Below, in pieces: positions 3,418-38,153 of a stretch of DNA of 42,598 nt. This DNA comes from Bacteroidia bacterium. GTDB taxonomy: Bacteria; Bacteroidota; Bacteroidia; SpSt-205. The translations under genes and the position numbers were made by a program. Each line of letters starts with the position of its first letter. The first letter of the stretch is position 1. The notes below the pieces were generated by a model. That model was not told the DNA's origin, did not search any database, and saw only the letters and a list, made by a program, of their open reading frames with translations. The stretch covers positions 1-42,598 of the forward strand of contig JAOAHZ010000014.1 of the NCBI GenBank assembly GCA_026414975.1, written 5' to 3'.

Positions 3418-6400
3418 TTAGGGCGTACTGGGGGAAGGTAAAGAACGGCGACGTCTTTCGGGCAAATAAAAGCTCTTGCGGAGTCGGAGTCCTGCGCCTT
3501 GACTGGTAGCCCCTGCCGCCCCCCACATGAAAGTCTGCCGACTGAACCCCTCCGCCTCTAACTGCCACTGCGTCGGTTGGGTAACTCGCTTCGGAAAGAG
3601 GCGATACCGAGCCGATAGATTCCCTAAAGCGGCTGTATTCTGCCCAGGTCCTATTAAGACTCCGTCCCGTTCCAGCGTGAATCGCTGTCCCAGTGACAGA
3701 CGCAGGCGGGCGGAGAGTTCATTCCATTCTCCCAGCGCAAAAGAAACGCCGACTTGACTTCCAAGCGTATAGCCTACCCAGTTGGCTAACTGGGCGGAAA
3801 GGAACTCGGCCAAAGTAGAGCTTACCCCCGAGCTAACTTGCTGGGTGCCTACCCCTTGCTCTAACGGAACGAAAGTGCCTAAGACAAGCAAAGCAAACAC
3901 TTGCCGATTCCGTTCCTGTTCATCAGTAGCCAGCCGTTGAAGGAATAGATTCACCATCGGTGTCGGGCTGCCAGAAAGCGAAGGAATATCTATTTCAAAC
4001 TTCATGGTAGGCGAGAGAAGGGCGCCGCGCACAAAAATCTTAAGCTCCACAGGGAGTGTGTAGGTAAAGCTCGTATCTATCATCCGAAGGGAAGTAAAAG
4101 TTCTATAGGTCGCAGTGAGGTCCATCTGTCCTTGGTATAGGTCTCCATCCCATGTAATACGACTGCCAGGTTCTAAGAGGAGCTTCTTAGAAGCTATACC
4201 TTGGAGATTGACGCGGTATTCGCCGCCTTGTACTTCGTAGGACCCGGCTAAGCTGGTCTGACCGCTACGATTGATAGAAAGAAGCAAGTTGGCGGAGCCT
4301 TGCGCGGTAATCTCATCGCCCGTCCGCTCATCAAAGAGCAATCGAAACCTTGTTTCAGGCAGAGAGCGAATAGCTACCCTTACATCTACCCCAACTGGAG
4401 CTGTGAGTTGAGGAAAGCTCTGGAATGTATCTACAGGTTTGAGAAAGCGCACATGTTCTGCTCCTGTGCTTCGCTCATAGGTTCGTAAGGGAAGGGTGAT
4501 GTCTGTGCTATTAGAGAAAACGACCTCTCCGCGTACATTAGGCTGATTCCAAGGACCGGTGATGGAAAAGCTCCCCTGTTCAAGGTCCGCTCGTCCATAG
4601 ATGTAAGCCTCAGTCGTAGCTGAAGAAGCCGCAAGCAAGAAAGGCTTGTCTCTGACCTGAAGACTAAGGTTCAAGTAGGGAGAGCTCCACTGGCGTAGAG
4701 CGATATAGCCTGTGATCTGGCTGCGTTTCATTCGGCTTTCCCTTAGTTCTACACCGGGAAAGATTATCGTATCTCCTCTCAAACGGAGGACACCTTCTAC
4801 AGTGTATAAAACATGTGTGATGGGCATGTAAAAGGTGAGCTTATTACAAAAGACTTCTCCAAAAATCAAAGGCCTTTCTGGCTTACCCCGAATAATCACC
4901 CTTTGGGAAACGAACAACCCTCTCAGATTCTGGATGTAATCATTTAGAAAAGGATTCAGCCATTCCGCCGGTATTCTCAGAGAGCGCAGTTCTGCATAGA
5001 GAGGGTTTATGGTATCTTTCAGAACATACACGCCGCGTGCTTGAACAAACGAAACATCCCCTTGTCGCAGGGCGATCTGAAAAGGTATAGAATCGCCGTA
5101 GGATTCTCCCGAGGCTTGAATGCTCGGGTAAGCTTGTCCCTCGTACTGGAGAGAATCAATGTCTAAGGCAAACTGGGGCCCCCCCTCATATTCGTGCCAA
5201 TACAAGGAGAGCTGTCCCTCTAAGGGAGCATGAATGCCTAATAGGATTGCACCCAAGGCAATAGGGAAATGATGAATAGACAAGCTTAGTTTGCCATTCA
5301 ACCGGGATAGCCTAAAGCGAGTTTCCTGTCCAGCCAAGGATAGTTCGTTTAGGCTCCAGTCTCCATTTTGTAGGTCGATTAGAATGGGTGCTATCTCTAT
5401 AAAGCTCCAACGATACCTTCCCAAAGTCAGAGAGGAGGTGCGGGGTTCTATTTGGAGGAGCAATGTATCCGCTGTGCGATGCCATGAAAATCTCAGCTCC
5501 GTGGTATCGATTCGTTCGGCGAGTAACCCTTCTAAAGCCCCAGTGCCTTCTCTCCACGTGCCAATCAAATGTAAATGAAGAGCCTCGTACGCAAGGTAGG
5601 CTTGTCCTTCCGTGGAGCCAAGTTCTACTTGAAGGGAGTCTCCCGATAGATATAGGGTGAGATGAGGGGAAAAAATCTGAATATCCTCCAAGCGCAGGGT
5701 GTCGCTTATCAGATGGATCACACCCTTTGGAGCGGAGCTGTCCGCCTCTACCTTGAAATAAGAGCGTAGATTATGTAGGAAAATCCGCTGGGACAATCCG
5801 AGCAGATGGAACCACTTGGGGTCCTGTATAAGAACTTCTCCGCGCAGGCTCCACCGAGAGAGAAGGCTATCAGAAAAACTGGTATCACCTCTTATCCACC
5901 TATGGAACCAGAGGGGTAGCGCATGCATCCATGTTCCATCGGCCGTACAAAAAATAGATAAGGCTTCGCCTTGTGCCCTGCAAGTTTTGCCGTTTTGTAT
6001 GCCTAAGTTGAGATTACCCAAAGAATAGCTCGTATCAGCCCATCGCCAGAGAATATTTGATAAGCAGAGCGTAGCTTGTCCTTCTTCCCAAGGAAAACCT
6101 CTACCTTTCAAAGTAAAGGTACCGTTTAGCCACCCTTGACTACCCCAGCTTTGGGCAGCCACGCTCGCAAAGGTGCCTTCGCCCTCGTAAGAGCCGATGT
6201 CATCAATAGGCATGCTTCCTCGGTATCTCAGATTCCCATAAGGGGTCTCTAAAGCAAAAAAGCCTGAGGCCTGAATAGCCTGGACTTGACTTCGGGTCTC
6301 TAAATGCCAGGGTCTGGCCTCTTTGTCTAAAGCGGATAGATTGGCGGTCACGTCAACCTTCAGGTCTCGGACTGAGAAGCCTTGTCCAGTCAGAGTAGTT

Positions 6401-7767
6401 GTCCCAGATACCGCTTGTACGGGCGTCTCTACAAACAGGGTAGAAGGGTTCCACTGCGCTAACTGTACCTTCAAATCATAGCGCCACACGGTGTCTCGTT
6501 CCATGTAAAGGGAGAAAGAAAGCTCTGGGGTCTCTATATCGGCGGTATACCGGCTCAGTCGTCCCGTATGAGAACCTCGTATCCTCCACGCGTGTGAGGT
6601 TTGGATAATATCGGGTAAATGTACGATGTCGGGGAGGGCATTATGCACGCTACTGAGCGACAGGACGGCTTCTTGGATGGTGAGCTTCCATTCCATAGCT
6701 GCAGGTCGGGCATAATGAACGATTTCGCCGACTCCCTCAATGAATTCGTTCGGTGAGGGGGAGAGCCATAACCTTTCCGCATGAAAATGGTATAAATCTC
6801 CCCGCAAGCGTAGATTTATGTCCCATTTGCCTCGCAGAGGGAGCGAATCGCCGACGAAGGTTGCGATGTCCGCCCAATCTATTTGTCCTTGGAGCTGGGC
6901 GTAAAAGAGTTTCGTTTCCGTATCCCTGAAGAGTTTATCGAAGCCTTCGTAAGGAAACCGAGCTCGTCCTGTGATAGTAGTGCGCTCCAATCTAATGTAA
7001 AAATGAGGGATGATGGTGCTATCGGGATAACCTTGTAGGGTCAGCTCAAGGGAAGGTAACTTTGTTTGAGAGTTGCGTTCAAATAGACTGAGCCTTTTGA
7101 GCTGAGCGAAGAGATAACGGTTAGCTCGCCACTCCACTGCGCTTTCCAGCTCTAAGGAGTCTATGAAAAGGTGTTCATAACGCAGCCAGCCGTAACGGGG
7201 GATAAGCTGGTTCTCTTTCGCTGTAGAATCAATCCAGCGAAACCGCCCACCCCTCAGTGTCAGCGAAGCAAGACTTACTTCCCAGCGAGTCTCTTTCGGA
7301 GGTGTCGTATCGGAAGAGGAGAAAAGCCGATCTACATTGGTGAGTCCAGAGGCTTTTTCGGTGTAGATATACACTTCTGGGTTTTGCAGGTTCAGAGAGG
7401 AGAAGGGGATATGCAGCCTTCCATTCCAGAATCCACGCCAGAAGGCTGAGGGGTACCAAGCTAATCGCAGTTCTTGTACGCGAATAAACGGGTGACAGGC
7501 TTTGTCGTATAGCACGAAACCTTCCAAAGAAAGGTGGGCAAGCCCTGATATCCTCAGTCGTTGTAGCTCCACCTCGGTCTCCAAGGCATCCGAAAGAAGA
7601 CCTATAGCCCACTGTCGCATCAGAGCCTGTCCTCGGTCTGAGGAGAGAAAGAGATGAAGACCTAAGATAAAGCCCAGCCAAAGAAGTAAGATACTCCCTC
7701 CTGCCCAGAGAAAAAACCCGCTAAGCCACCTTAGGACTCGTGCCCAGAGCCGGAGTCGAACCGGCAC
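3418..7767 (-). CDS. TamB/AsmA-like translocation and assembly module protein
   Basis: A protein of about 1,450 residues with an Arg-rich N-terminus, one membrane anchor (FFLWAGGSILLLWLGFILGL), a very long beta-rich repetitive middle, and a C-terminal TamB (DUF490) domain. Recognisable C-terminal features are IDIPSLSGSPTPMVNLFLQRL, then RNRQVFALLVLGTFVP and an AEFLSAQLANWVGYTLGSQ stretch. Family members span the periplasm and move lipids or help outer-membrane protein assembly. The start is a problem. The frame runs through tRNA-Leu, and no ATG, GTG or TTG occurs between the tRNA 3' end (7741) and the membrane anchor. I chose GTG 7767, preceded by GGGGGAG five bases upstream, both inside the tRNA. 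The alternative is ATG 7818 in the acceptor/D region. Either way mature tRNA and TamB mRNA share sequence. Confidence 0.85.
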   Translation of the reverse strand: MPVRLRLWARVLRWLSGFFLWAGGSILLLWLGFILGLHLFLSSDRGQALMRQWAIGLLSDALETEVELQRLRISGLAHLSLEGFVLYDKACHPFIRVQELRLAWYPSAFWRGFWNGRLHIPFSSLNLQNPEVYIYTEKASGLTNVDRLFSSSDTTPPKETRWEVSLASLTLRGGRFRWIDSTAKENQLIPRYGWLRYEHLFIDSLELESAVEWRANRYLFAQLKRLSLFERNSQTKLPSLELTLQGYPDSTIIPHFYIRLERTTITGRARFPYEGFDKLFRDTETKLFYAQLQGQIDWADIATFVGDSLPLRGKWDINLRLRGDLYHFHAERLWLSPSPNEFIEGVGEIVHYARPAAMEWKLTIQEAVLSLSSVHNALPDIVHLPDIIQTSHAWRIRGSHTGRLSRYTADIETPELSFSLYMERDTVWRYDLKVQLAQWNPSTLFVETPVQAVSGTTTLTGQGFSVRDLKVDVTANLSALDKEARPWHLETRSQVQAIQASGFFALETPYGNLRYRGSMPIDDIGSYEGEGTFASVAAQSWGSQGWLNGTFTLKGRGFPWEEGQATLCLSNILWRWADTSYSLGNLNLGIQNGKTCRAQGEALSIFCTADGTWMHALPLWFHRWIRGDTSFSDSLLSRWSLRGEVLIQDPKWFHLLGLSQRIFLHNLRSYFKVEADSSAPKGVIHLISDTLRLEDIQIFSPHLTLYLSGDSLQVELGSTEGQAYLAYEALHLHLIGTWREGTGALEGLLAERIDTTELRFSWHRTADTLLLQIEPRTSSLTLGRYRWSFIEIAPILIDLQNGDWSLNELSLAGQETRFRLSRLNGKLSLSIHHFPIALGAILLGIHAPLEGQLSLYWHEYEGGPQFALDIDSLQYEGQAYPSIQASGESYGDSIPFQIALRQGDVSFVQARGVYVLKDTINPLYAELRSLRIPAEWLNPFLNDYIQNLRGLFVSQRVIIRGKPERPLIFGEVFCNKLTFYMPITHVLYTVEGVLRLRGDTIIFPGVELRESRMKRSQITGYIALRQWSSPYLNLSLQVRDKPFLLAASSATTEAYIYGRADLEQGSFSITGPWNQPNVRGEVVFSNSTDITLPLRTYERSTGAEHVRFLKPVDTFQSFPQLTAPVGVDVRVAIRSLPETRFRLLFDERTGDEITAQGSANLLLSINRSGQTSLAGSYEVQGGEYRVNLQGIASKKLLLEPGSRITWDGDLYQGQMDLTATYRTFTSLRMIDTSFTYTLPVELKIFVRGALLSPTMKFEIDIPSLSGSPTPMVNLFLQRLATDEQERNRQVFALLVLGTFVPLEQGVGTQQVSSGVSSTLAEFLSAQLANWVGYTLGSQVGVSFALGEWNELSARLRLSLGQRFTLERDGVLIGPGQNTAALGNLSARYRLFPKRVTQPTQWQLEAEGFSRQTFMWGAAGATSQGAGLRLRKSFYLPERRRRSLPSPSTP

Positions 7768-7824
7768 GGGGTCTCCCCCACCAGTTTTTGAGACTGGCGC
7801 GTCTACCTGTTCCGCCATCTGGGC
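7741..7824 (-). tRNA. tRNA-Leu (anticodon CAA)
   Basis: Reading the minus strand gives a complete cloverleaf: acceptor GCCCAGA paired with TCTGGGC, discriminator A at 7741, D-arm with AGG, and anticodon stem CCAGT/ACTGG around loop CTCAAAA (anticodon CAA, reads UUG). There is a long variable arm (GGGGG..CCCC), as expected of a class II tRNA, and a T-arm GCCGG-TTCGACT-CCGGC. CCA is not encoded. A TACCTTTG box ends 9 nt before the 5' end. Its 3' part overlaps the putative start of the TamB-like gene on the same strand. Confidence 0.95.
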
Positions 7825-7833
7825 CTCTTTGAA

Positions 7834-7841
7834 CAAAGGTA
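7834..7841 (-). promoter_or_regulatory. -7 box TACCTTTG for tRNA-Leu (and perhaps the TamB-like gene)
   Basis: Exact TAnnTTTG match on the minus strand, 9 nt upstream of the mature tRNA-Leu 5' end. It probably also drives read-through into the TamB-like gene, since no separate box is visible between them. Confidence 0.75.
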
Positions 7842-7909: not shown

Positions 7910-8995
7910 TCACGCCACGGTAATCCGCTTCTCCAGATAGACTGCTTGGACCGCTCGGATGATGTTGATTCCTTCTTCCATCGGACGCTGAAAAGCCTTA
8001 CGTCCAAGTATTAGCCCCATTCCCCCAGCTCGCTTGTTGATAACGGCTGTGCGTACTGCTTCTCCCAAATCAGTCTGCCCTGCAGAGGCTCCTCCAGAGT
8101 TGATGAGCCCCACTCGCCCCATGTAGTTATTGACGACTTGATAACGACATAGGTCAATCGGGTGGTCAGTGGTCAGCTTTTCGTAGACCTTACTGCTCGT
8201 CTTGCCAAACTTAAGCGCCGTGTAGCCTCCATTATTTTCAGGTAGTTTTTGTTTGATGATATCTGCCTGTAGGGTAGCACCCAGATGGTTGGCCTGACCT
8301 GTTAGATCAGCGGAGAGGTGGTAGTCTTTATCGGCGTTGAAGGCCTTATTCCGCAGGTAGGTCCAAAGGATCGTAACCATACCCAGTTCATGGGCATAAG
8401 CGAAGGCTTCGGCTATCTCTTGAATCTGGCGGCTGGATTCTTCCGAACCAAAGTAGATGGTGGCACCGATAGCTACGGCTCCCATGTCCCAAGCTTGCTT
8501 CACCGATCCAAATAGGATTTGGTCGTATTTGTTCGGGTAAGTGAGCAGTTCATTGTGATTGATTTTGACGATGAAGGGGATTTTATGAGCGTATTTTCGG
8601 GCTACGCTACCCAGTACGCCGAAAGTGGAAGCCACAGCATTGCAGCCTGCCTCTAAGGCCAGTCGCACGATATTTTCGGGGTCAAAGTAAATCGGGTTGG
8701 GGGCGAAGGAAGCGCCACCGGAGTGTTCTACGCCTTGGTCTACAGGCAAGATAGATAGATAGCCTGTTCCCGCTAAGGTGCCGTGAGAGAAAAGAGCCTG
8801 CATATTTCGCAGGACCTGAGGGTGGCGATCGCTGGCGCTCCAGACGCGATCTACAAAGTCTGGCCCAGGTAGATGGAGGTGCTCCTTAGGTACCGTTTGA
8901 CAGGTATGGTTTAGCAGGCTTTCCGCTTCGTCGCCCAATAAAGCGACTATATCATCATACGACCGTACACTCTGAATCGCTGCTACTGTCGCCAT
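7910..8995 (-). CDS. fbaB: Class I fructose-bisphosphate aldolase (DhnA/FbaB type)
   Basis: 361 residues, the usual length for this family. It should cleave fructose 1,6-bisphosphate to dihydroxyacetone phosphate and glyceraldehyde 3-phosphate through a Schiff-base lysine in the cytoplasm. Recognisable blocks are [15 protein letters not shown] near residue 95, [46 protein letters not shown] and the phosphate-binding end [18 protein letters not shown] 8995 was chosen because it begins MATVAAIQS and lies 7 nt after the metK stop; the longer frame would overlap metK. Gene order metK-fbaB on one strand and the absence of a box suggest co-transcription. It is metal-independent, unlike class II enzymes. 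Confidence 0.93.
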
Positions 8996-9002
8996 AGATA
9001 TG

Positions 9003-10301
9003 TTAGTTGGGTAGAGTTTCCTTGACGGCAAAAGCCTCCCTTAGACGCTCCACTTGATCTAACTTTTCCCAAGGAAAAGTTTCTGCAGTGCGCTTTTGAT
9101 GGATGTATTGCTCTTGAGGTCCATCAGGTGTTTGGTCTATGTGGAGGTAAACATGTTCGTAGTTTATTGGGTGAGGTTTCCGTCCTAAGTGCCCATAGGC
9201 AGCTGTAGGGCGGTAGATGGGGGCTTGTAGTTTGAGGTGCTCTATGATAGCACTTGGACGCAAGTCAAATAGCTCGGAGAGCCGGCTGGCGATCTCGCTA
9301 TCAGATAAGGGTACACGAGCCGAGCCATAAGTATTCACATAGAGAGCGACGGGACGAGCGATACCGATAGCGTAGGCGACTTGAATAAGGACTTCGTCGG
9401 CGATGCCAGCGGCTACGAGATTTTTGGCTATGTACCGAGCCATGTAGGCTGCGCTGCGATCAACTTTGGTAGGGTCCTTTCCAGAGAAGGCTCCACCTCC
9501 ATGTGGGGCTCTGCCGCCATAGGTATCCACGATTATTTTGCGTCCCGTCAGGCCTGTGTCAGCATGAGGGCCGCCTAAAACAAACCTTCCGGTGGGATTG
9601 ACAAATAAACGCGTGTTTTCATCCACCATTTCAGCTGGCAAGACCCGAGGAAGGAGCAGCGTGCGCACATCGGTTTCAATGCGCTTTTGCATTGTTCTCC
9701 AGTCTTCGGCAAACTCTTCATGCTGGGTGGATAGAACAATTGTATGCACTCGTAAAGGACGACCATCATCGGCGTATTCAATCGTTACCTGACATTTTGC
9801 ATCAGGCCGTAAGTAGGGCATGAGGGAGGGTTCATGCTTTCGGATATGAGCAAGCTCTCTTAGGATGCGATGGGCATAGGCGATAGGCATAGGCATATAC
9901 TCCTCGGTTTCCCGGCAAGCGTAGCCAAACATCATGCCTTGGTCTCCTGCGCCTAAATCAGGGTCTAATCCTTGACCTCGATTCACGCCGAGAGCTATAT
10001 CAGGGGATTGACGATGGATTGTTACAATCACGCCGCAGCTGTCCGCATCAAATCGGAGCTCAGACCGATTATACCCTATGTCACGAATGGTAGCTCGGGC
10101 TATCTCCTCATAGTCCACCCGTGCCGTAGTGGTGATTTCACCTGCAAGGACGACAAGCCCCGTGGTAACTAAGGTTTCGCAGGCTACGCGGCCGTAAGGG
10201 TCCTGCGCTAAGATAGCATCTAAAATGGAGTCCGATATCTGATCCGCCACCTTATCGGGGTGCCCTTCTGAGACGGACTCGGAGGTGAAGAGGTACGACA
10301 C
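9003..10301 (-). CDS. metK: S-adenosylmethionine synthetase
   Basis: 432 residues. It makes S-adenosylmethionine from ATP and methionine as a cytoplasmic homotetramer. All three family signatures are present: N-terminal [20 protein letters not shown] with the ATP-binding His, central [12 protein letters not shown] (about residue 120), and the P-loop-like [22 protein letters not shown] 10301 was chosen over the longer ATG start because it yields the family's usual N-terminus SYLFTSES and lies 5 nt after a TATATTTG box. The C-terminal tail is somewhat longer than in enterobacterial enzymes (after [12 protein letters not shown]), which I believe is common in Bacteroidota. fbaB follows 7 nt downstream. 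Confidence 0.95.
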
Positions 10302-36381: not shown

Positions 36382-36828
36382 ATGAGGGGTGCAGTGCTGC
36401 TGGTGATGGGATGGGTTTGGGCGCAAGAGCCAGCTAATCAGCCCGTGCCTTACACGCTGGCGGATAGGGATAGACTGATACGGGTAGAAACCGAACTCAC
36501 CGCCTTCAAAGAGCAGTATCGACAAGAAATGGCCAGTCTGCGGGGAGAAATAAATGAGCTTCGCAATCAACTCTCTCGCATGGAAAGTCGCTCTGATACT
36601 CAGTTCTATGCCCTGCTCAGTTCAATCGGGGTTCTCATCGCTTCGGTCATAAGCCTGATAGGTTTCATCCTCTGGGATAGACGAAAAGCCTTAGAGCCCG
36701 TGGAGCGAGAAATAAGCCAACTGCGCCAAGACACCGCTCGGCTCACCCGCTTAGTCCAATCGCTGCGAGAGTACGCCCGTACGCATCCTGACCTTGCGGA
36801 GATACTGCGGCGGTACGAGCTGGTGTGA
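36382..36828 (+). CDS. Tandem coiled-coil membrane protein, copy 1
   Basis: 148 residues, unrecognised family. The layout is: signal-like N-terminus (MRGAVLLVMGWVWAQ, cut after AQ), linker EPANQPVPYTLADRDRLIRV, and a coiled coil (FKEQYRQEMASLRGEINELR, NQLSRMESRSD). Next come a membrane helix (LLSSIGVLIASVISLIGFIL) ending in WDRRKAL, a second coiled coil, and the tail SLREYARTHPDLAEILRRYE, almost identical in all four copies. The first coiled coil should be periplasmic and the tail cytoplasmic if the signal is cleaved. First of four tandem copies, divergent from a secreted CHAT gene remnant. Confidence 0.8.
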   Translation: MRGAVLLVMGWVWAQEPANQPVPYTLADRDRLIRVETELTAFKEQYRQEMASLRGEINELRNQLSRMESRSDTQFYALLSSIGVLIASVISLIGFILWDRRKALEPVEREISQLRQDTARLTRLVQSLREYARTHPDLAEILRRYELV

Positions 36829-36839
36829 GGTTTTTTGAG

Positions 36840-36847
36840 TATCTTTG
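36840..36847 (+). promoter_or_regulatory. -7 box TATCTTTG for tandem copy 2
   Basis: Exact match 5 nt before GTG 36853, inside the short spacer after copy 1. Confidence 0.6.
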
Positions 36848-36852
36848 ATAAA

Positions 36853-37299
36853 GTGAGAGGGGCAGCACTCCTACTGAGCCTGCTGCTATGGGCGCAGGAA
36901 GCAGCTAACCAGCCCGTGCCCTACACGCTGGCAGATAGAGATAGGCTGATACGAGTAGAAGAGCGCCTGACGAGTTTAGAGAAAGAAGTTGAGGGTATTC
37001 AAGCTCACCTCGCTCGCATGGAGACCCGACATGACTCAGACATGGCAGAGCTACGCTCCCAGCTCGCTCGCATGGAAAGTCGAAACGACACGCAATTCTA
37101 CACCCTGCTGACGATACTGATGGGGTTCATAGCATTTCTTCTGTGGGATAGGCGGAAAGCCTTAGCCCCTATGGAGAGTAAGGTTGCGGAGCTCCAAAAA
37201 GACTCTGATAAACTCACCCGCTTAGTCCAATCGCTGCGAGAATATGCCCGTACGCATCCCGACCTTGCAGAGATACTGCGGCGGTACGAGCTGGTGTGA
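36853..37299 (+). CDS. Tandem coiled-coil membrane protein, copy 2
   Basis: 148 residues from GTG 36853, chosen because it aligns with MRGA of copies 1 and 4 and follows the box by 5 nt; the in-frame TTG 36835 would add MSIFDK and cover the box. Same layout as copy 1. It carries an extra ~18-residue stretch in the first coiled coil, where LARMET/SR recurs (HLARMETRHDSDMAELRSQ then LARMESRND), a local duplication. The membrane helix is of the LLTILMGFIAFLLWD type, shared with copy 4. Linker reads EAANQPVPYTLADRDRL. Confidence 0.78.
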   Translation: MRGAALLLSLLLWAQEAANQPVPYTLADRDRLIRVEERLTSLEKEVEGIQAHLARMETRHDSDMAELRSQLARMESRNDTQFYTLLTILMGFIAFLLWDRRKALAPMESKVAELQKDSDKLTRLVQSLREYARTHPDLAEILRRYELV

Positions 37300-37310
37300 G
37301 GTTTTTTGAG

Positions 37311-37318
37311 TATTTTTG
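37311..37318 (+). promoter_or_regulatory. -7 box TATTTTTG for tandem copy 3
   Basis: Exact TAnnTTTG match 5 nt before GTG 37324, in the spacer after copy 2. Confidence 0.55.
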
Positions 37319-37323
37319 GTAAA

Positions 37324-37737
37324 GTGAGAGGGGCCGTACTCCTACTGGGCCTGCTGCTATGGGCGCAAGAGCCAGCTAATCAGCCCGTGCCCTACACGCT
37401 GGCTGATAGAGATAGATTGATACGAGTGGAGGAGCGCCTGAGGAGTTTAGAGAAAGAAGTCGAGGGCATTCAGGCTCAACTCGCTCGCATGGAAAGCCGT
37501 TCCGATGCCCAGTTTTACACATTGCTGAGCTTGATTGGACTCATGTTAGCCTCTATCGCAGGGCTGATTGGATTTATTCTCTGGGACAGAAGAAAAGCAT
37601 TAGAACCTGTACAAAAAGAAGTAAATGAGCTCCGCAAAGATTCAAGCAAACTCAGCCGCTTAGTTCAATCGCTGCGAGAGTATGCCCGCACCCACCCAGA
37701 CCTCGCAGAAATACTGCGGCAATATGAGCTAGTGTAA
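37324..37737 (+). CDS. Tandem coiled-coil membrane protein, copy 3
   Basis: 137 residues from GTG 37324 (MRGAVLLLGLLLWAQ). First coiled coil EERLRSLEKEVEGIQAQLAR; membrane part LLSLIGLMLASIAGLIGFIL resembles copy 1 rather than copies 2 and 4. The second coiled coil (VQKEVNELRKDSSKLSRL) is more diverged, and the tail ends ILRQYELV. The mixed pattern suggests exchange between copies. Confidence 0.78.
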   Translation: MRGAVLLLGLLLWAQEPANQPVPYTLADRDRLIRVEERLRSLEKEVEGIQAQLARMESRSDAQFYTLLSLIGLMLASIAGLIGFILWDRRKALEPVQKEVNELRKDSSKLSRLVQSLREYARTHPDLAEILRQYELV

Positions 37738-37747
37738 GTTTTTTAAG

Positions 37748-37755
37748 TATCTTTG
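37748..37755 (+). promoter_or_regulatory. -7 box TATCTTTG for tandem copy 4
   Basis: Exact match 5 nt before GTG 37761. Confidence 0.6.
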
Positions 37756-37760
37756 ATAAA

Positions 37761-38153
37761 GTGAGAGGGGCAGCACTCCTACTGAGCCTGCTGCTATGGG
37801 CGCAGGAGCCAGCTAACCAGCCCGTGCCCTACACGCTGGCGGATAGGGATAGGCTGATACGAGTAGAAGAGCGCTTGACGAGTTTAGAGAAAGAAGTTGA
37901 GGGTATTCAAGCTCAGCTTGCCCGCATGGAGAGCCGAAACGACACGCAATTCTACACCCTGCTGACGATACTGGTGGGGTTCATAGCATTTCTTCTGTGG
38001 GATAGGCGGAAAGCCTTAGCCCCTATGGAAGCCAAAGTGGCAGAGCTTCAGAAGGACGGCGATAAGTTGAGTCGTTTAGTCCAATCGCTGCGAGAGTATG
38101 CCCGTACGCATCCTGACCTGGCAGAGATACTGCGGCGGTATGAGCTGGTGTGA
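37761..38153 (+). CDS. Tandem coiled-coil membrane protein, copy 4
   Basis: 130 residues, the shortest copy. Signal MRGAALLLSLLLWAQ, linker EPANQPVPYTLADRDRL, one coiled-coil unit (LTSLEKEVEGIQAQLARMES), membrane helix LLTILVGFIAFLLWDRRKAL, second coiled coil (APMEAKVAELQKDGDKL) and the conserved tail. It closely matches copy 2 but lacks the 18-residue duplication. After it the array ends, and the M28 peptidase gene converges 81 nt away with no visible terminator. Confidence 0.78.
   Translation: MRGAALLLSLLLWAQEPANQPVPYTLADRDRLIRVEERLTSLEKEVEGIQAQLARMESRNDTQFYTLLTILVGFIAFLLWDRRKALAPMEAKVAELQKDGDKLSRLVQSLREYARTHPDLAEILRRYELV

Follow-up and report, generated by a model that had tools for sequence, protein, structure and literature searches.

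Where does translation of a protein begin when its reading frame runs without interruption through a tRNA gene? The question is raised by a 42,598-nt stretch of DNA from an uncultured group of Bacteroidia (the window), in which the frame of a tamB-like gene (minus strand, stop at 3418) is open across an entire tRNA-Leu(CAA) gene on the same strand. This confirmed what a sequence-only reading of the DNA had claimed. Counted from TTG 7836, the frame comprises 1472 aa, and its residues 1040 to 1456 match the TamB domain (2.7e-32; 112.9 bits versus a Pfam cutoff of 22.4). The tRNA scores as a full tRNA with both ARAGORN and RF00005. ARAGORN called it at 7824..7740 (minus), and both the acceptor stem and the Rfam match (7741-7824) place the discriminator at 7741. 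It is a single-copy gene by pattern in 12/12 genomes of the family and, in the genome of the window, by anticodon as well.

Table 1. Coordinates of features at the tRNA-Leu(CAA)/tamB locus, given as positions in the window
Feature	Position	Strand	Basis or remark
DeoC/LacD-family aldolase gene, upstream neighbor	7910..9031	minus	PF01791, 2e-65
Putative promoter box TACCTTTG, Bacteroidota -7 type (TAnnTTTG)	7834..7841	minus	ends 9 nt 5' of the tRNA
tRNA-Leu(CAA)	7741..7824	minus	ARAGORN; RF00005, 58.3 bits
Candidate TamB start ATG, tRNA nt 7-9	7816..7818	minus	in frame at 10/10 fused loci
Candidate TamB start GTG, tRNA nt 58-60, variable arm/T-stem junction	7765..7767	minus	in frame at 10/10 fused loci
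Post-tRNA codons 1-11 (RVLRWLSGFFL), apparently translated linker and start of the anchor	7708..7740	minus	contains no start codon
Hydrophobic N-terminal anchor of TamB, approximate	7642..7728	minus	translation inspected by eye
tamB-like CDS, 1449 aa counted from GTG 7767 (1466 aa from ATG 7818)	3418..7767	minus	PF04357

From the tRNA through the end of the anchor, ATG 7818 and GTG 7767 are the only in-frame ATG, GTG, or TTG codons, and the first one 3' of the tRNA is codon 41, ATG 7620, beyond the hydrophobic anchor. GTG and TTG codons do occur 3' of the tRNA out of frame (e.g., TTG 7681); none of them reads TamB. The earlier statement that no ATG, GTG, or TTG lies between the tRNA and the anchor is thus true in the TamB frame, where the first ATG after the tRNA is indeed past the anchor, and the positions it gave for the two tRNA-internal codons and for the GGGGGAG stretch proved correct.

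We searched 60 related genomes with the TamB protein. The family set (n = 12) consisted of the genome of the window, 10 others of the same genus, and one of another genus (G011). A tamB gene lies directly 3' of tRNA-Leu(CAA) in 10/10 of the other same-genus genomes and in G011, and its frame is fused in frame with the tRNA in the genome of the window and in nine of these ten. The in-frame fusion is thus conserved among relatives, a point that the sequence-only reading had proposed to check. Identity of the TamB proteins to that of the window is 39 to 60%, which argues that the fused layout is not due to recent copying. Codons 1 to 11 after the tRNA contain no ATG, GTG, or TTG at any of the ten fused loci; in some relatives, an in-frame GTG or TTG appears at codons 12 to 25, within the anchor. 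These sequences leave no ATG, GTG, or TTG at which the ten fused loci could start between the tRNA and the anchor.

Relatives with an intervening start codon had been named as the finding that would speak against the overlap, and only two have one. In G007, a sister lineage, an ATG lies about 20 nt past the discriminator in a different frame, and in G011, the sister genus, a TTG lies 1 nt past it. The tamB gene of G007 (L034) is broken across several frames in the assembly, probably by sequencing errors. In a tree of the C-terminal part of TamB, G007 and then G011 fall outside the ten, which group together with moderate support (86/81). By parsimony on this tree, one change accounts for the fused character, and the ten genomes, sharing one origin of the trait, are not independent trials.

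The segment between the tRNA and the anchor has the properties of coding sequence. The distance from the discriminator to a conserved E-T-D/E-V motif of TamB is 153 or 156 nt at 10/10 fused loci. Over the first 12 codons of these loci, second positions vary least (0.44 versus 0.66 and 0.70). Read in frame 0, the linker has no stops and positive BLOSUM similarity; the two remaining frames contain 8 and 3 stops and score negatively for similarity. The encoded residues are Arg rich and then hydrophobic, as expected ahead of a membrane anchor, and a hydrophobic N-terminal stretch, a candidate inner-membrane anchor, is visible by eye at 10/10 fused loci. In frame 0, then, the linker is coding-like and looks translated. 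A start-free run over the first 11 codons in ten sequences arose in 0/20,000 shuffles, and under a model that held amino acids and codon usage constant a start-free linker had a probability of 0.0014; both values overstate the case, because the genomes were treated as independent and are kin.

The surroundings of the locus suggest how mRNAs of this lineage begin. A TAnnTTTG box lies upstream of tRNA-Leu(CAA) at 12/12 family loci. In Bacteroidota, this box sits about 7 nt upstream of transcription starts. We measured its distance to gene starts in a 400-kb sample of the genome of the window (L251-L270), calling starts mechanically, with the first start codon favored, by an identical procedure in all genomes; one control genome was used for promoter distance and two for tRNA gaps. 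In 33 cases the box ended 4 nt ahead of a candidate start codon, versus 2 in control G047, and in 13 cases it ended 5 nt ahead of one, versus 2 (46 versus 4 for both distances). A reversed motif gave 2 cases at 4 nt versus the 33 for TAnnTTTG. Among divergent genes, 27/82 had a box 3 to 7 nt before the start, versus 4/90 in the control. With transcription beginning about 7 nt past the box and start codons lying 4 nt past it, leaderless mRNAs are expected, and the motif distance suggests that they are widespread in the family. Within the window itself, four tandem related small genes (36382-38153) have signal-peptide-like starts (M/VRGA.LL...WAQE.ANQ), and each start codon is preceded at 5 nt by a TATnTTTG box of its own.

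Other genes of this genome begin right after tRNAs. At about 12 of its tRNAs, a same-strand gene begins 1 to 8 nt past the discriminator (loci L063, L106, L068, L076, L102, L077, L079, L074, L107, L057, and L067, with matching loci in the related genome G005). By sequence inspection, these genes include dxr, tig, rplY, prs, fbp, secE, ligA, and an OsmC-like gene. Most of the pairs recur in G005 with a similar gap, and several recur in G011. We found no tRNA-to-start gap below 8 nt in the two control Bacteroidia, where the minima were 17 nt (G047) and, from an incomplete sample, 8 nt (G059). An encoded C74 was rejected as the cause of the short gaps, since C74 is present in all genomes compared, controls included. 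Promoter boxes of tRNAs in the genome of the window mostly end 4 to 11 nt upstream of the tRNA, so each such tRNA would form the leader of the next gene. A peak of boxes 4 nt before starts, together with genes 1 to 8 nt after tRNAs, is a new context for the locus, beyond the view of the sequence-only reading; the control Bacteroidia have neither that peak nor gaps below 8 nt.

These surroundings also offer an alternative to a start inside the tRNA. The tamB mRNA might begin just past the discriminator, after 3' cleavage of the tRNA, and be translated from a non-AUG codon in its 5'-terminal region, much as other genes of the family begin 1 to 4 nt after a tRNA; the tamB frame begins exactly at the first base past the discriminator. 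The abutting genes, however, retain ATG, GTG, or TTG at that site, unlike tamB, whose first codons there are CGA, CGG, CAG, CTG, or CTA. No near-cognate start codon is common to the ten fused loci at any place in post-tRNA codons 1 to 14. We therefore consider a start of this kind unlikely. A search for an internal promoter found no TAnnTTTG box in the tRNA or the following 120 nt.

It is less probable still that TamB starts within or past the anchor (at ATG 7620 in the window), with the open frame through the tRNA being incidental. The in-frame GTG or TTG codons inside the anchor of several relatives would permit such a start. In the genome of the window, though, the first candidate lies past the anchor, the linker ahead of it looks translated, and ten genomes preserve both the reading frame and the length.

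A start 5' of the tRNA can be put aside almost entirely. TTG 7836 is in frame, yet it falls within the promoter box, ahead of the point where transcription is predicted to begin. Most relatives have no start codon in that region, and G003 and G006 have in-frame stops 3 to 4 codons 5' of the tRNA-internal ATG, which rule out a start from the tRNA leader. Equally improbable is an assembly or sequencing error that deleted a normal start: the genomes are mostly metagenome assemblies and the tamB gene of G007 has frame breaks, but an artifact as the origin of the fusion is contradicted by ten separate assemblies that agree on the arrangement, including one that consists of a single 2.27-Mb contig.

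In G003 and G006, where a stop closely precedes the tRNA, the start must be either inside the tRNA or non-canonical. We infer that TamB starts at one of the two tRNA-internal codons, ATG at nt 7 or GTG at nt 58, and the choice between these was weighed on several grounds. The sequence-only reading had offered both, GTG 7767 first, with GGGGGAG from the variable arm upstream of it. A choice of GTG with this Shine-Dalgarno-like arm is uncertain, and ATG 7818 is at least as plausible, given its nearness to the predicted 5' end and the apparently largely leaderless nature of the lineage. Of the four genomes modeled, three would have the ATG 8 to 11 nt from the predicted 5' end of the transcript, and G005 would have it 17 nt away. 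For the GTG, the sequence upstream is purine rich, GGGGGAG in the window and GGAGG in most relatives. The 16S rRNA of G005 ends in CCTCCTTT, keeping the anti-Shine-Dalgarno end; given this and the purine-rich variable arm, GTG nt 58 may be a start of the Shine-Dalgarno type.

Conservation and structure do little to separate the two codons. The tRNA is conserved for its own sake, and both would be kept whether used or not. Among tRNA-Leu(CAA) genes across the class, A7 is a minority state that is not unique to this group, and genes outside it can carry ATG or GTG at nt 7 as well; the tRNA sequence therefore does not decide between ATG and GTG. Nor can the frame, since they are 51 nt apart. Folding of the full precursor predicted both codons to be partly paired, and folding of partial transcripts was equivocal. 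A comparable layout occurs elsewhere in the genome of the window (L108), where a 177-aa frame is open through tRNA-Leu(CAG), with GTG at tRNA nt 7 and 58 and the first start past the tRNA 23 nt downstream. This arrangement was not seen in G005.

The best overall explanation, to which we give a probability of roughly 0.7, is that tRNA-Leu(CAA) and tamB form one unit in which the TamB start lies inside the tRNA and each transcript yields either tRNA or TamB. The two genes would be transcribed together from the TAnnTTTG promoter, with RNA synthesis beginning a few nucleotides before the tRNA. Cleavage at the tRNA 3' end would remove the TamB start from the tamB message. A precursor on which a ribosome engages ahead of tRNA folding and cleavage would yield TamB, and a matured transcript would yield tRNA-Leu and a tamB remnant without a start. 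Since demand is high for the tRNA but presumably low for TamB, a small fraction of escaping precursor could suffice. The sequence-only reading had likewise placed the start inside the tRNA and held that one transcript could not give both products. Genus-wide conservation supports this core reading well. Transcription start sites, leaderless translation, the start used, and the either/or outcome are all features that we infer from sequence. That such a race has a regulatory role, coupling envelope assembly to tRNA maturation as the sequence-only reading had suggested, is speculation.

The locus can be placed in a wider scheme. Some genes of the family would be transcribed from the start codon itself, and others, those abutting tRNAs, would become leaderless after tRNA 3' cleavage. 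The tamB gene would derive from the tRNA-abutting layout, the TTG 1 nt past the discriminator persisting in G011, and a single shift of its start into the tRNA would have taken place in the common ancestor of the ten sampled species. Start codons after the tRNA may since have been avoided, maintaining the competition. We propose only tentatively, at slightly under even odds, that a set of leaderless mRNAs is made from transcripts whose removable leaders are tRNAs and that in one clade, with the tamB start inside the tRNA, maturation competes with protein synthesis. If true, a conserved stretch of bacterial RNA would serve both as an apparently unique tRNA and as a protein start, the choice being made per transcript. 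Such proteins would also be truncated or misplaced in annotation by any gene caller that disallows overlap with tRNAs.

TamB of this clade resembles other TamB/DUF490 proteins (PF04357) in its C-terminal TamB domain, its length of about 1,450 aa, and an N-terminal segment that looks hydrophobic, and it differs from them in that its start codon is apparently supplied by a tRNA gene. Like them, it may act in outer-membrane assembly or lipid transport. Of the 37 Bacteroidetes/Chlorobi genomes that Zheng et al. (2011) surveyed with a Pribnow-type search, only 1 had leaderless genes (2.4% of genes; PMC3160421). As in bacterial leaderless genes described there and in mycobacteria (PMC4633059), the promoter box here lies a few nucleotides before the start codon. 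In contrast to the Pribnow-type element of that survey, the box here is TAnnTTTG, and tRNAs may act as removable leaders. The part of the literature covered gave no bacterial example of translation beginning within a tRNA or of leaderless mRNAs punctuated by tRNAs. In bacterial operons that join a tRNA to an mRNA, such as trpT-secE and thrT-tufB, there is ordinarily space for a leader 3' of the tRNA. The present locus is like them in that a tRNA and a protein gene would be cotranscribed, and unlike them in having no leader space, whereas the controls show gaps of at least 8 nt. In animal mitochondria, tRNAs punctuate the transcript: protein genes abut or overlap same-strand tRNAs, and tRNA excision yields near-leaderless mRNAs. 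The tRNA-abutting genes and the boxes 4 nt before starts suggest that, much as in mitochondria, tRNA excision makes leaderless mRNAs in this bacterial family. What differs is the setting, a bacterial chromosome in which promoters stand immediately ahead of the tRNAs, and the depth of the tamB start, which would lie far into the tRNA, 26 or 77 nt short of its last base.
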